Assembly (NCBI GenBank): GCA_031179495.1
Contig: JAPSHS010000005.1
Coordinates: 1 to 50,900 of the forward strand
Direction: 5' to 3'
From: Kocuria sp.
GTDB taxonomy: Bacteria; Actinomycetota; Actinomycetes; Actinomycetales; Micrococcaceae
DNA length: 50,900 nt
A program made the position numbers and the translations under genes. How positions within the stretch are numbered: the first letter of the stretch is position 1; the number at the start of each line of letters is the position of its first letter. Shown here in pieces: positions 29,436 to 36,028 of this stretch. The notes under the pieces were generated by a model. It was given only the letters and a program-made list of their open reading frames with translations. It was not told the origin of the DNA and searched no databases.

Positions 29436-29957
29436 TCAGCCGACCTCGAGCTCGGTGACGCTCCAGCCCTGTCCCAGGCGTTCCACCCGCATGGCCACGG
29501 CCCGGCCGCGGCGGGGCTCGACCACCACGAGGGCGACCTCGTAGACCCCGCGGTCCACCCGGCAGACCCGGCACCGGCGGACGTGCGGATTGCGGTGCAG
29601 CTCCTGCAGGGCGGGCTTGGCCTCGAACTGCTCCTGCAGCAGCCGCAGCATGTCCGCGCGCTGCTGGAAGCGCTGCACGATCTCCGGGGTGGTCCACCGG
29701 CCCAGCTGCGCCGCCGGCCGGCTGCCGCCGAGCACCTCCACGGCCGCCTGGCCGATGGACCGGGCGAGCGCGGTGACGCGGGCCAGCTCGTCCTCGGCGC
29801 TGTGGGCCATGACGCGTGTGGCGCCCCAGGTGTACCCGCCCGGAGCCGTGGGCGGGCCGGGCCGTGCCCGGCGGACCGGCGGCGGGGCCGGTGGACGCCC
29901 TGGGGCGGTGGCGAGCGGCCGGGTGAGGGGGTCGGAACCGGCGGCGGGTGCGTCCAT
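29436..29957 (-). CDS. Rv3235-family conserved protein
   Basis: 173 residues. The first 50 are Pro/Arg-rich and probably disordered; ATG internal starts such as MAHSAEDELARV (near residue 50) are possible. The core matches the actinobacterial Rv3235 family: QAAVEVLGGSRPAAQLGRWTTPEIVQRF, then VRRCRVCRVDRGVYEVALVVVEPRRGRAVAMRVERLGQGW. The fold resembles a small alpha+beta domain; function unknown. It is convergent with secA and 49 nt downstream of the LysM gene on the same strand, likely the same transcript. Confidence 0.8.
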   Translation of the reverse strand: MDAPAAGSDPLTRPLATAPGRPPAPPPVRRARPGPPTAPGGYTWGATRVMAHSAEDELARVTALARSIGQAAVEVLGGSRPAAQLGRWTTPEIVQRFQQRADMLRLLQEQFEAKPALQELHRNPHVRRCRVCRVDRGVYEVALVVVEPRRGRAVAMRVERLGQGWSVTELEVG

Positions 29958-30006: not shown

Positions 30007-30819
30007 TCAGCGGTCGCCGGGGCCGGGCACCACGAGTCGTTGCCCGGGTCGCAGCAGGTGGGGACCGCAGGGGAGCGCGTGCCGGTTCAGCTCGTACCAG
30101 GCAGGCCAGGCGCGGGCGATCTGCTCGTCCGTGGCCCCGGGGCCGAGCTGCGCCGCGGCGAGGGACCACAGGGTGTCGCCGCGCAGCACGGTGACGGCGC
30201 CGTCGACCGTGCGGCCCGCCGGTGACGGGGGCGGAACGGACGGGGCGTGCGCCAGCGGGGGCCTCGTGCCCGGGAGAACGGTCTCCGCGCGAGGAGCCGC
30301 CGGGGGAGCGGTCGCCGGGGAAGCCGTCGGCGCGGGCCCGGAGTCCGGCGCGGGCAGCGGTGCCGGCGCGCCGGGGGAGGACCCGGGGAGTCCGTGCACC
30401 GCCGCACTGCCGCCCCAGAAGGGTGAGGGGGCCTCGTCGGCGACCGCGCCCTGTGCAGCGACGAGCTGCAGCCCCAGGGCCGCGGCGGCGGCCCGGCGCA
30501 GCAGCGCCGGGGACCACCGCCCGCACAGCCTGCCCAGGCGCTCCCAGCGGTGCCGCCGGGCGAGCACCGCCAGGAGGGCGAGGGCGGCCGCCGCGCTCCA
30601 GACCACGACCACCGCACAGCCGAGGGCGGCGGCGCCCAGCCCGATCAGCAGCTCCGGACCAGGGTGGCCCCGGGACGGACCCGCGGGCATTGCGCCGCCG
30701 AGCACAGGGCGGCTGAGCACCGCGCCGCTGGCGGCGAGCGCGAGCCCGAGGGCCGGGACCAGCAGGACCGGCCACCACGGAGACGTGGTCCCGTGGTCGG
30801 ATCCAGTCGTGGTGTCCAT
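30007..30819 (-). CDS. Membrane protein with C-terminal LysM domain
   Basis: 270 residues from ATG 30819 (MDTTTGSDHG), which has GGGGGAG just upstream. An in-frame start at 30894 would make a repeat-encoded N-terminus and is rejected. Two or three hydrophobic helices (WWPVLLVPALGLALAASGAVL, ELLIGLGAAALGCAVVVVWSAAAALALLAVL) are followed by a Pro/Ala-rich linker of about 90 residues. One LysM domain (about 210-268; VTVLRGDTLWSLAAAQL and HLLRPGQRLVVPGP) should bind peptidoglycan. The LysM loop contains an insertion, WPAWYELNRHALPCG. No catalytic domain is present, so it may anchor or sense the wall. Its upstream region carries the decamer array. Confidence 0.82.
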   Translation of the reverse strand: MDTTTGSDHGTTSPWWPVLLVPALGLALAASGAVLSRPVLGGAMPAGPSRGHPGPELLIGLGAAALGCAVVVVWSAAAALALLAVLARRHRWERLGRLCGRWSPALLRRAAAAALGLQLVAAQGAVADEAPSPFWGGSAAVHGLPGSSPGAPAPLPAPDSGPAPTASPATAPPAAPRAETVLPGTRPPLAHAPSVPPPSPAGRTVDGAVTVLRGDTLWSLAAAQLGPGATDEQIARAWPAWYELNRHALPCGPHLLRPGQRLVVPGPGDR

Positions 30820-30842
30820 GCTCTCCCCCGTCGTCCGCACCG

Positions 30843-30912
30843 CTTCAATGCTGTTTGGAGCTTTTTGACGTCCTTTGATGCTCTTTGACGTCATGGACGT
30901 TGTTTAGCACCG
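30843..30912. repeat. Tandem 10-bp direct repeats (candidate cooperative operator)
   Basis: Read on the plus strand the region falls into consecutive decamers from 30843: CTTCAATGCT, GTTTGGAGCT, TTTTGACGTC, CTTTGATGCT, CTTTGACGTC, then two weaker units. TT at positions 2-3 and G at position 8 are invariant in the first five, and TTTGA is shared by units 3-5. The stretch is strikingly AT-rich for this genome. It overlaps the -10 of the LysM promoter and extends into its leader. A 10-bp period puts each unit on the same face of the helix. Confidence 0.75.
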
Positions 30913-30963: not shown

Positions 30964-30992
30964 TTGACCGCCGTACGGGGCGGTCCTACGTT
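30964..30992 (+). promoter_or_regulatory. Promoter TTGACC-17-TACGTT for the divergent hypothetical gene
   Basis: TTGACC (30964-30969) and TACGTT (30987-30992) with a 17-nt spacer, 46 nt before the GTG at 31039. It lies about 50 nt from the decamer array. Confidence 0.65.
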
Positions 30993-31630: not shown

Positions 31631-31846
31631 TCAGTCCAGCGAGCCGGAGCGCACCGCCTCGGCGGTGCGCTCGTAGCCGCGGGCGATGTACTCCTCCAGC
31701 TTGGCCGTCTCGACCCGCCACTGCCCGCGCCCGCCCACCTGGATGGCCGGCAGGTCCCCGCTGCGCACCAGAGCTCTCGCCTGCGTCGCCGAGACGTTGA
31801 GGATCTCGGCGACGTCCGCCAAGGTCAGGAAGCGCTGCTGCGCCAT
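31631..31846 (-). CDS. Small HTH protein, excisionase/BldC-like MerR-type DNA-binding
   Basis: 71 residues, a single winged helix-turn-helix: FLTLADVAEILNVSATQARALV (HTH), then GDLPAIQVGGRGQWRVETAKLEEYI (wing and helix). This is the MerR-like fold shared by phage excisionases and the developmental regulator BldC. There is no integrase or att-like sequence nearby, so a chromosomal regulator is more likely than a prophage relic. ATG with GAGGAGG 6 nt upstream. CAGACT (31888-31883, minus) is a possible -10. Plausible, untested ligand of the decamer array 700 nt away. Confidence 0.85.
   Translation of the reverse strand: MAQQRFLTLADVAEILNVSATQARALVRSGDLPAIQVGGRGQWRVETAKLEEYIARGYERTAEAVRSGSLD
31647..31672. 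repeat. Perfect 12-bp palindrome at the 3' end of the HTH gene
   Basis: GAGCGCACCGCC and its exact complement GGCGGTGCGCTC are separated by 2 nt. It falls in the last codons of the HTH gene (ERTAEAVRSG) and 45 nt past the convergent hypothetical gene. It may be a terminator for that gene or a binding site. Confidence 0.5.
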
Positions 31847-34138: not shown

Positions 34139-35707
34139 GTGGCGTTCACGGAAGCTCTGAGGAACAGCCGGGACTTCGGGCCCGGCGACTACGAGTGGCT
34201 GCATCTGCTCGTGGGGGACTGGCAGCTCATCTCGGACCTCGCCTTCGGGGACCTCGTCCTGAGCTTCCCCATGGACTACATCCCCGCCGCGGGCAGCGGC
34301 AACGGCCGCGGCATGCCCGCCCCCCGCAGCACGTTCCAGGTGCTCGCCCACGTCCGCCCGGCGACCGGGCCCACGGTCTTCCACCGGGACATGGTCGGTG
34401 AGCAGATGCCCGAGGAGCTGGCCGGGCCACTGCGCGCCGCCTGGGTCGGGCGGCGGATCGAGCTCCTGCGCGCGGCCGGGGAGCAGCCCGCCACCGCCGC
34501 TCAGGTCAAGATCGTGCCGCTCGTGCGCAACGGCCGCACGATCGCCCTGCTGACCGTGCACACCGGGCGGAGGCCGGGACAGGTCTCCTCGCTGCAGGAG
34601 GTCGTCTACCGTGAGACCGCCGACGTGCTGCTGCGAATGGCCAACGAGGGGCTGTGGCCGGACTTCTCCGCGCCCACGGGCTCGCGCCGGGGCGCGCCGC
34701 GGGTCGGGGACGGGGCCATCCGGCTCGACACCGACGACCGTGTCTCCTACGTCTCGCCCAATGCCGAGTCCGCGCTGCGCCGGCTGGGGATCGACGGCGA
34801 GCTGGTCGGGAAGCGCCTCATGGACGTGGTCCCGCCAGCGCTGGGTGCCGGGACCGACCCGGACGAGACGCTCGCCCCGGTGCTCAGCGGACGCACGGCC
34901 TGGCGCACCGAGGTCGAGGGGGCCCGCGTGAGCGTGAACTTCCGCTCGGTGCCCCTGCGCGACCGGTCAGGCCGCCGGGGCGCGGTGCTGCTGTGCCGCG
35001 ACGTCACCGAGCTGCGCCGCCGGGACCTGGAACTCGTCTCGAAGGACGCGACCGTCCGGGAGATCCACCACCGGGTCAAGAACAACCTGCAGACCGTCTC
35101 CGCCCTGCTGCGCCTGCAGGCCCGGCGGATGACCACCGACGAGGCCCGGCACGGGCTCGAGCAGGCGATGCGCCGGGTGGCCACGATCGCGATGGTGCAC
35201 GAGACCCTCTCACAGGGGTTCTCGCAGAACGTGGACTTCGACGAGCTCATCGAGCGGCAGTTCCGGCTGGCCGCGGAGGTGGCCACTCCGGAGCAGTCGG
35301 TGCGCACCCGGATGATCGGCGAGTTCGGGGAGCTGCCGACCCGCCTGGCCACCCCGCTGGCGCTCGTGATCAACGAGCTGGTCACCAACGCGGTCGAGCA
35401 CGGACTGGCCGAGGGGACCGGGACGGTGACCCTGGAGGCCTCCCGGGTGCCCGACGAGGAGGGCACCGGCGAGCTGCTCGAGGTCGTCGTGAGCGACGAC
35501 GGCGCGGGGATGGGTCCCGTCGTGATCGAGGAGTCCGGCGCGGGCGCCTTCCGGCGGGCGGACACCGGTGAGGGTCTGGGGATGCAGATCGTCCGCACCC
35601 TGGTGGCCGGGGAGCTGGGCGGGTCGATCCGCTGGTCCCCGCGCCAGTACGGCGGCACCGAGGTGACGGTGCGGGCCCGCCTCGACGACCGGTCCGCCGG
35701 CCCCTGA
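34139..35707 (+). CDS. pdtaS: Sensor histidine kinase PdtaS (HisKA_2/HWE type)
   Basis: 522 residues, soluble. An N-terminal GAF-like domain (about 10-160; DYEWLHLLVGDWQLISDLAFGDLVLSF) and a PAS domain (about 190-300; IRLDTDDRVSYVSPNAESALRRLG) precede the HisKA_2 motif EIHHRVKNNLQTVSALLRLQ (His310/His311). HATPase_c has NELVTNAVEHGL, DDGAGM and GLGMQIVRTLV. In M. tuberculosis PdtaS signals to PdtaR, an antiterminator of the ANTAR type, in response to nitric oxide and metals. pdtaR is not in this window. GTG with GGAGG upstream. Adjacent and convergent to whiB1, as in Rv3220c-Rv3219. Confidence 0.92.
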   Translation: MAFTEALRNSRDFGPGDYEWLHLLVGDWQLISDLAFGDLVLSFPMDYIPAAGSGNGRGMPAPRSTFQVLAHVRPATGPTVFHRDMVGEQMPEELAGPLRAAWVGRRIELLRAAGEQPATAAQVKIVPLVRNGRTIALLTVHTGRRPGQVSSLQEVVYRETADVLLRMANEGLWPDFSAPTGSRRGAPRVGDGAIRLDTDDRVSYVSPNAESALRRLGIDGELVGKRLMDVVPPALGAGTDPDETLAPVLSGRTAWRTEVEGARVSVNFRSVPLRDRSGRRGAVLLCRDVTELRRRDLELVSKDATVREIHHRVKNNLQTVSALLRLQARRMTTDEARHGLEQAMRRVATIAMVHETLSQGFSQNVDFDELIERQFRLAAEVATPEQSVRTRMIGEFGELPTRLATPLALVINELVTNAVEHGLAEGTGTVTLEASRVPDEEGTGELLEVVVSDDGAGMGPVVIEESGAGAFRRADTGEGLGMQIVRTLVAGELGGSIRWSPRQYGGTEVTVRARLDDRSAGP

Positions 35708-35713
35708 CGCAGA

Positions 35714-35744
35714 AGGACCGGGACCCCACGGGGGTCCCGGTCCT
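35714..35744. terminator. Hairpin between pdtaS and whiB1
   Basis: AGGACCGGGACCCC pairs with GGGGTCCCGGTCCT (14 bp) around the 3-nt loop ACG. It is 6 nt after the pdtaS stop and 35 nt from the convergent whiB1 stop, so it can serve both. Confidence 0.8.
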
Positions 35745-35779
35745 CGAACACCGCGGACGTGAGCGTCCGGGCGGAAGCC

Positions 35780-36028
35780 TCAGGAGGCGCGGCGGGCGCG
35801 GGCTGCGCGGCGCTTGAGGGCGCGGCGCTCGTCCTCGCTCATCCCGCCCCAGACACCGGCGTCCTGGCCGGACTCGAGGGCCCACTGCAGGCAGGTGTCC
35901 ATCACGGGACAACTGCGGCACACGGCCTTGGCCTCCTCGATCTGGAGCAGAGCAGGTCCGGTGTTGCCCACGGGGAAGAACAGCTCGGGATCCTTCTCCA
36001 GGCATGCTGCGCGACTACGCCAATCCAT
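35780..36028 (-). CDS. whiB1: WhiB1-type iron-sulfur transcription factor
   Basis: 82 residues. The four [4Fe-4S] ligands are Cys9, Cys37, Cys40 and Cys46 (CRSCPVMDTC). The turn GVWGG and C-terminal basic RRALKRRAARARR (AT-hook-like DNA-binding helix) follow. MDWRSRAACLEKDPELFFPVG and SGQDAGVWGGMSEDERRALKRR are near-identical to the mycobacterial WhiB1 pattern. WhiB1 binds the sigma factor and reacts with nitric oxide; it is essential in M. tuberculosis. ATG with GGAG about 12 nt upstream. The leader contains a terminator-like hairpin, so attenuation is possible. Confidence 0.95.
   Translation of the reverse strand: MDWRSRAACLEKDPELFFPVGNTGPALLQIEEAKAVCRSCPVMDTCLQWALESGQDAGVWGGMSEDERRALKRRAARARRAS

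Follow-up and report, generated by a model that had tools for sequence, protein, structure and literature searches.

We identified a conserved, operator-like array of five head-to-tail decamers in a 50,900-nucleotide stretch of DNA from Kocuria sp. (contig JAPSHS010000005.1, positions 1 to 50,900 of the forward strand; the whole stretch is referred to below as the window). The array occupies the intergenic region between a LysM-domain gene on the minus strand and a divergent gene on the plus strand, here called DivG (Table 1), and its conservation at this locus is well supported by sequence comparisons. Its likely binder is HTH71, a 71-residue winged helix-turn-helix (wHTH) protein encoded just past DivG. 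We consider it probable that the array is the operator of HTH71, monomers of which would line up head to tail and repress the LysM-DUF6459 operon; repression as the outcome of binding is our best guess. A first-pass annotation of the window had proposed an operator for a nearby BldC-like protein, or another multimerising regulator, controlling the LysM/Rv3235 transcript and perhaps the divergent gene. The comparative evidence supports the central part of this proposal; the good units fall elsewhere than proposed.

The decamer array within the window

Read on the plus strand, the five units are CTTCAATGCT (starting at 30843), GTTTGGAGCT (30853), TTTTGACGTC (30863), CTTTGATGCT (30873) and CTTTGACGTC (30883). 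All five carry the invariant TT at positions 2-3 and G at position 8 that the first-pass annotation had described, whereas its full consensus, yTTTGAnGyy, is matched by units 3 to 5 and not by units 1 and 2. The two degenerate units that it placed beyond the array can be read at 30893 and 30903. It had also called the stretch exceptional in this GC-rich DNA, which is borne out by a GC content of 44% over 30843-30892 against a window average of 73.9%; only 18 of the 50,850 50-bp segments in the 50.9 kb are equally AT-rich, and every one overlaps the array.

We scanned the window's own genome (2.61 Mb, 76% complete) for two adjacent decamers at up to 3 mismatches, as had been suggested with the annotation. 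The 5 matches comprised three overlapping registers of the array (0, 0 and 2 mismatches) and two weaker places (2 and 3 mismatches), and the same pattern read backwards gave 3 matches. A terminator-like hairpin at 30842-30861 on the plus strand (one found, 0.2 expected) was rejected as an element in its own right and taken for a by-product of the repeats, because its orientation is wrong for LysM.

Conservation in the genus and order

Of 59 genomes, 54 had a DivG match: the 27 of the genus, with the window's own among them, and 27 others. All 27 genus genomes contain a tandem pair scoring at least 14/16 within 330 bp 5' of DivG, and the consensus of 88 genus units is GTTTGATGYY. In eight genus genomes the pattern GTTTGATGTCGTTTGATG, at up to 3 mismatches, gave 15 matches, 12 at the locus and 3 in genome G004, compared with 3 for the reversed control; genome G020 had none at this threshold. 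One pair in G004 (G004:C2:272006) lies, by reading, in a putative ABC ATPase gene, and two weaker pairs were seen in the same genome.

A matrix trained on the 88 genus units was tested against dinucleotide shuffles in 27 other genera of the order. It reached p<0.01 in 21 of these (20 clearly, and L083 weakly, with a score of 8.0, before DivG), and 10 bp was the best of the periods 8-13 in 25 of the 27. No pair at p<0.01 was found before DivG or HTH71 in L070, L073 or L084, and pairs of a GTTTGC type are present in the first two. The pair lies farther upstream in L065 and L066, and the array of L072 is on the opposite strand. A lenient scan (14 of 16) also matches a few other places inside the loci, for example in L067, L086 and L089, which we treat as background.

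Across 297 genomes of the order, the exact pair pattern was found 19 times, 15 between DivG and LysM, once at an HTH71 promoter and three times elsewhere in genus g16, with 1 match for the control. These g16 genomes (L048, L049 and L050, at L092-L094) thus contain a perfect decamer pair away from the locus; in L092 the flanking genes, named by reading, are lipB and an uncharacterised open reading frame (ORF) of 258 residues. Matches without the locus genes were also seen in L096 and L099/L100.

A strict core, RTTTR-N5-RTTTR, was found at period 10 on the DivG-sense strand in 22/27 genomes of the genus, 19/28 of the order and 19/23 from other orders (17/21 without L097 and L098, which had been selected by pattern). 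Elsewhere the core gave a single match in total across the other periods from 7 to 14, and none on the other strand. Conservation of decamer phase and number in relatives had been set as a check in the first-pass annotation: the 10-bp phase is kept across orders, and the number of units is not, varying from roughly 2 to 5, or from 2 to 7 by lenient count. The period and strand tests, together with the genome scans, led us to reject a chance repeat.

Distribution in other actinobacteria

When 84,980 species were scanned for exact 18-mers, 50 stretches were found, 25 of them from Actinomycetota and all of these at the locus, 24 adjoining DivG and one (L107) adjoining LysM. The taxa include Micrococcus, Pseudarthrobacter, Cellulomonas, Georgenia, Demequina, Oerskovia, Nocardioides and Kineosporia. 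The 25 non-actinobacterial stretches, 16 of Bacteroidales type, were set aside; tandem GTTTGATGTY-like 10-mers in Bacteroidales metagenome-assembled genomes (L102, L103, L109, L112 and others) look like an unrelated repeat family.

The HTH71 profile, at E<=1e-12, matched 100 of the 197 genomes that we sampled across the class. Of these, 87 lie outside the order, and we examined 66 of them, made up of 26 best-ranked loci and 40 chosen to cover families. Outside the order the exact GATG-type pair occurs in only 4 of 296 genomes, at the locus in L097 and L098 and elsewhere in the other two. A variant decamer, GTTTGCYTRY, was identified there at the equal place, strand and period. Thus GTTTGATGYC is found in most of the window's order and GTTTGCYTRY in most other lineages (L202-L229, L243-L269), the latter type also occurring in families f17 and f5 of the window's order, with the GTTTG core, period and strand fixed across both. 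In the 40 family-covering loci, period 10 on the expected strand gave 24 matches, against 3 across fifteen other combinations. By strict core, 32 of 46 DivG loci outside the order have the array within 450 bp upstream of DivG, compared with 2 of 18 loci without DivG, where it was accepted anywhere in the locus (Fisher p 4e-5, with two loci cut by contig ends omitted and related genomes treated as independent).

Position of the array relative to the promoters

The predicted LysM promoter can be read either as TTTACA with an 18-bp spacer or as TTACAC with 17 bp, followed in both cases by TAAACA; a generic sigma-70 scan reported no promoter at these hexamers. Assuming a transcription start 7 nt past the -10 box, near 30894, the five good units would cover the LysM transcript from about +3 to +52, and so lie in its leader. 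The first-pass annotation had the array overlapping TTACAC-17-TAAACA, which fits the degenerate units that touch the -10 box, while the good units flank the hexamers and fall at or after the predicted start.

In the window's clade, seven of eight species have YCAAA (TTTGR as seen on the minus strand) exactly 12 bp past the LysM -10 box and at every 10 bp thereafter, so that the phase of the array matches that of the box. L008 has an additional YCAAA at 2 bp, and L013 is short by one base. The distance from the array to the DivG start ranges from 73 to 287 bp in the genera that passed the matrix test. These distances bear on a rather unlikely alternative, that HTH71 binds the array and mainly activates or insulates the DivG promoter, or bends the DNA between the two promoters, without repressing LysM. 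The company that the array keeps with DivG outside the order is in its favour, as is the ability of BldC to activate as well as repress (PMC6428758). However, it is the LysM -10 box to which phase and distance are tied in the window's clade, and the DivG distance varies; we therefore prefer repression of LysM. An equal polarity and near-start place also recur at the HTH71 promoter, a place without DivG: in L014-L017 a two-decamer array begins just past a GACACT box, with the same polarity relative to transcription.

Since the repeats lie in the predicted leader, they might instead act in the leader RNA, for instance in translation control, and not as DNA. We regard this as very improbable. The leader folds slightly better than shuffles (z -1.16), but 27 of 200 shuffles fold as well or better, making its fold unremarkable, and the strict 10-bp spacing combined with a drifting sequence fits the helical phase of DNA. 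A known Rfam element was also rejected, as the leader has no Rfam match up to E 1.

HTH71 as the candidate binder

HTH71 is a small, lone wHTH protein of 71 residues, with neither a coiled coil nor an effector domain, as is characteristic of the BldC family. Its AlphaFold2 model (pLDDT 91.9) is a single domain with helices at 9-16, 20-29 and 47-67 and a two-stranded wing, and the HTH_17 assignment holds in all 44 HTH71 relatives studied. BldC entries are the best fold matches to this model in the PDB, with about 25-27% identity in the structure alignments. Aligned by helix boundaries at an offset of 5, residues L11, F21, V23, W31 and I40 of the hydrophobic head-to-tail interface of BldC correspond to F6, L16, V18, L26 and I35 of HTH71, all hydrophobic, and the BldC pair E16-R22 to D11 and N17. 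L16 is invariant among the 44 sequences, and F6, D11 and I35 are nearly so.

A phmmer search of the PDB with HTH71 found only designed repeat proteins, and an HTH71 profile had a single match below E 0.001, the Pukovnik Xis (E 3.5e-4), BldC not being matched. A BldC query sequence gave no strong match in the 27 genus genomes or in ten other genomes of the family, with weak matches of 21.8-24.5 bits in 3 of the 37. Strong matches (at least 64.9 bits) were identified in 13 of the 59 genomes, all outside the window's family; 12 of these also have HTH71, and BldC and HTH71 lie at separate places in all 12. Because of this separation and the lack of a strong match in the genus, HTH71 is not a BldC orthologue. 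PMC4255298 describes bldC as lost many times, with losses linked to Micrococcineae. We rejected the array as a canonical BldC operator, since the genus has the array but no strong match to BldC.

We identified arrays at the HTH71 promoter, at p<0.01, in 11 of 27 genus genomes and 6 of 24 others (17/51 in total, L018 and L020 barely). We favour HTH71 as the binder on three counts: BldC is the best match to its model, its own promoter carries an array in these genomes, and a strong match to BldC is lacking in the genus. It is unlikely, in our assessment, that another multimerising regulator, such as canonical BldC, a response regulator or a WhiB-type complex, binds the array with HTH71 a mere neighbour. 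Adjacency by itself proves nothing, response regulators bind direct repeats too (PMC5859096), genes for a WhiB protein and a PdtaS-type kinase lie nearby, and many genomes have HTH71 without the array. Against such a regulator stand the second array at the HTH71 promoter and, for canonical BldC, its lack of a strong match in array-bearing genus genomes and its presence in genome G053 without DivG or a good HTH71 match.

Several results weigh against HTH71 as operator-binding protein. At p<0.01, 34 of the 51 HTH71 promoters fail, among them the array-less one of the window itself (p=0.62), and by strict core such arrays are found in only 2/27 genomes of the genus, 4/25 of the order and 0/28 outside it. 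By the same core, 14 of the 46 DivG loci outside the order have no array. Also outside the order, 16 of the 18 loci without DivG keep HTH71 with no array nearby, two of these 16 (L220 and L227) being cut by a contig end, and only 2 of 14 genomes that keep HTH71 without DivG or array had a site by a wider pattern. In the Z ranking BldC ties with the phage packaging protein 6hn7 and the Pukovnik Xis, and where BldC has its base-reading Arg30, HTH71 has an alanine when the two are aligned by helix boundaries. Residue 36 of HTH71 follows the repeat type, being Q in 56 of 66 A-type (GATG) and K in 34 of 35 B-type (GCTT) loci (101 of 109 loci, 7 of mixed type and one without residue 36 having been dropped, and pattern-selected loci included); on the DivG tree, however, only 1 of 8 residue-36 changes coincides with a change of repeat type (p=0.52), which gives no independent support.

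The array or site is mostly not found in genomes without DivG, suggesting that HTH71 has other work there. In L230-L240 and L255-L257, HTH71 is kept with no DivG match and no array, adjoining a SAF-type gene (by reading) in L231, and it may have another target in these lineages. Among the genomes without a DivG match, G039, G053, G055 and G057 have no good HTH71 match and G041 has one; a diverged DivG adjoins HTH71 in G176 and G242, from the genus of G041, so that the miss in G041 may be a matter of sensitivity. The array is present in G035 and G036 even though their best HTH71 match is far from DivG.

Proposed mechanism

Each decamer would take one HTH71 monomer, all on the same face of the helix, with neighbouring monomers helping one another to form a cooperative head-to-tail filament, as in BldC. 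Running from about +3 into the LysM leader, this filament would obstruct RNA polymerase binding or escape at the LysM promoter, during initiation or immediately afterwards; where the second array exists, HTH71 would also repress its own gene. The level of HTH71 and the number of decamers would be the tuning variables. More tentatively, HTH71 and the array could be an undescribed actinobacterial pair, a filament-forming mini-MerR with GTTTG-cored decamers as a copy-number-tuned roadblock at the start of LysM, opposite an Sm/Hfq-like gene, and in some lineages at its own gene, in which the second half of the decamer switches between GATG and GCTT while phase, polarity and place stay fixed.

Neighbouring genes and features

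The spacing of the LysM and DUF6459 genes suggests that they likely share one transcript. DivG had no match in Pfam or NCBIfam. Past it lie HTH71 and then SAF, ParA-like, PdtaS-type kinase and WhiB genes; the neighbours named by Pfam are secA, DUF6459, LysM, SAF, ParA-like, PdtaS kinase and WhiB. The PdtaS-type kinase and WhiB genes at 34139-36028 adjoin the locus, an arrangement that may resemble the mycobacterial Rv3220c-Rv3219 neighbourhood.

Table 1. Positions of the array, predicted promoter elements and genes in the window.
Feature	Position	Strand	Basis and remarks
Array of five head-to-tail decamers	30843..30892	+	Orientation GTTTGATGYC; sequence, with phase, strand and place kept in relatives
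Two degenerate units, ATGGACGTTG (30893) and TTTAGCACCG (30903)	30893..30912	+	10-bp phase continued over LysM -10; weak, from sequence only
Predicted LysM -10 hexamer, TAAACA	30906-30901	-	TANCAA at equal spacing in the other 7/8 clade species (L007-L013)
Predicted LysM -35 hexamer, TTTACA	30930-30925	-	TTTACA in 8/8 species (L006-L013)
Possible DivG promoter, TTGACC-17-TACGTT	30964..30992	+	Read by eye; not scored in the generic sigma-70 scan
LysM-domain gene, predicted target	30007..30819	-	ORF; Pfam LysM E 1.1e-4; array in predicted leader
DUF6459 gene	29436..29957	-	Pfam DUF6459 E 1.4e-27; 49 bp 3' of LysM; convergent with secA
DivG, divergent gene, 187 aa	31039..31602	+	Modelled C-terminal Sm/Hfq-like barrel
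HTH71, 71-aa BldC-like wHTH, likely array binder	31631..31846	-	Pfam HTH_17 E 8e-14

Comparison with known systems

In the open-access literature, no paper on the array or on HTH71 was found among the matches listed. We also found no description there of the function of the LysM, DUF6459 and DivG genes beside secA, a search for Rv3235/DUF6459 returning a single passing mention. The array offers a first handle on these genes.

The palindromic sites of classical MerR proteins lie between -35 and -10. HTH71 shares the wHTH fold of these proteins, which bind palindromes as symmetric dimers (PMC5859096), whereas here direct repeats follow the predicted -10 box and the protein has no dimerisation domain. 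Excisionases of the Xis/recombination directionality factor type (Pukovnik Xis, 4j2n; RdfS, 8dgl) also have the HTH_17 wHTH fold and form head-to-tail filaments (PMC11963761), and HTH71 passes the NCBIfam 'excise' domain cut-off. Unlike them, it is encoded in a conserved chromosomal neighbourhood (secA, LysM, SAF, PdtaS kinase, WhiB), and its presumed site is a promoter and not att.

The closest likeness is to BldC of Streptomyces (whiI, smeA-sffA), the founder of a widespread family, which binds direct repeats as head-to-tail multimers (this and the following particulars being those of PMC5859096). BldC too is a small, single-domain, MerR-like wHTH protein with no effector or coiled-coil domain, and its sites are likewise AT-rich direct repeats, varying in number, each unit taking up about one turn of the helix. 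The BldC site is AATTXXXX(C), in contrast to GTTTGATGYC or GTTTGCYTRY here; the spacing is 9 bp in the whiI crystal and 10 bp here; and BldC binds at -50 to -80 or -60 to -10, as opposed to the predicted start site. BldC has a large regulon, compared with few pattern-matched sites per genome here, and its Arg30 is not kept in HTH71.

The array and HTH71 together would form a direct-repeat system of the BldC kind that has a repeat sequence, a spacing and a place of its own. To our knowledge, few members of the BldC family besides BldC itself have known sites. HTH71 would add a non-BldC member whose candidate site is clear, phased and conserved and occurs mostly at a single locus. The bacteria concerned grow easily and do not sporulate, and the dozens of natural operator variants make the rules of head-to-tail recognition (number, spacing and base specificity) testable.
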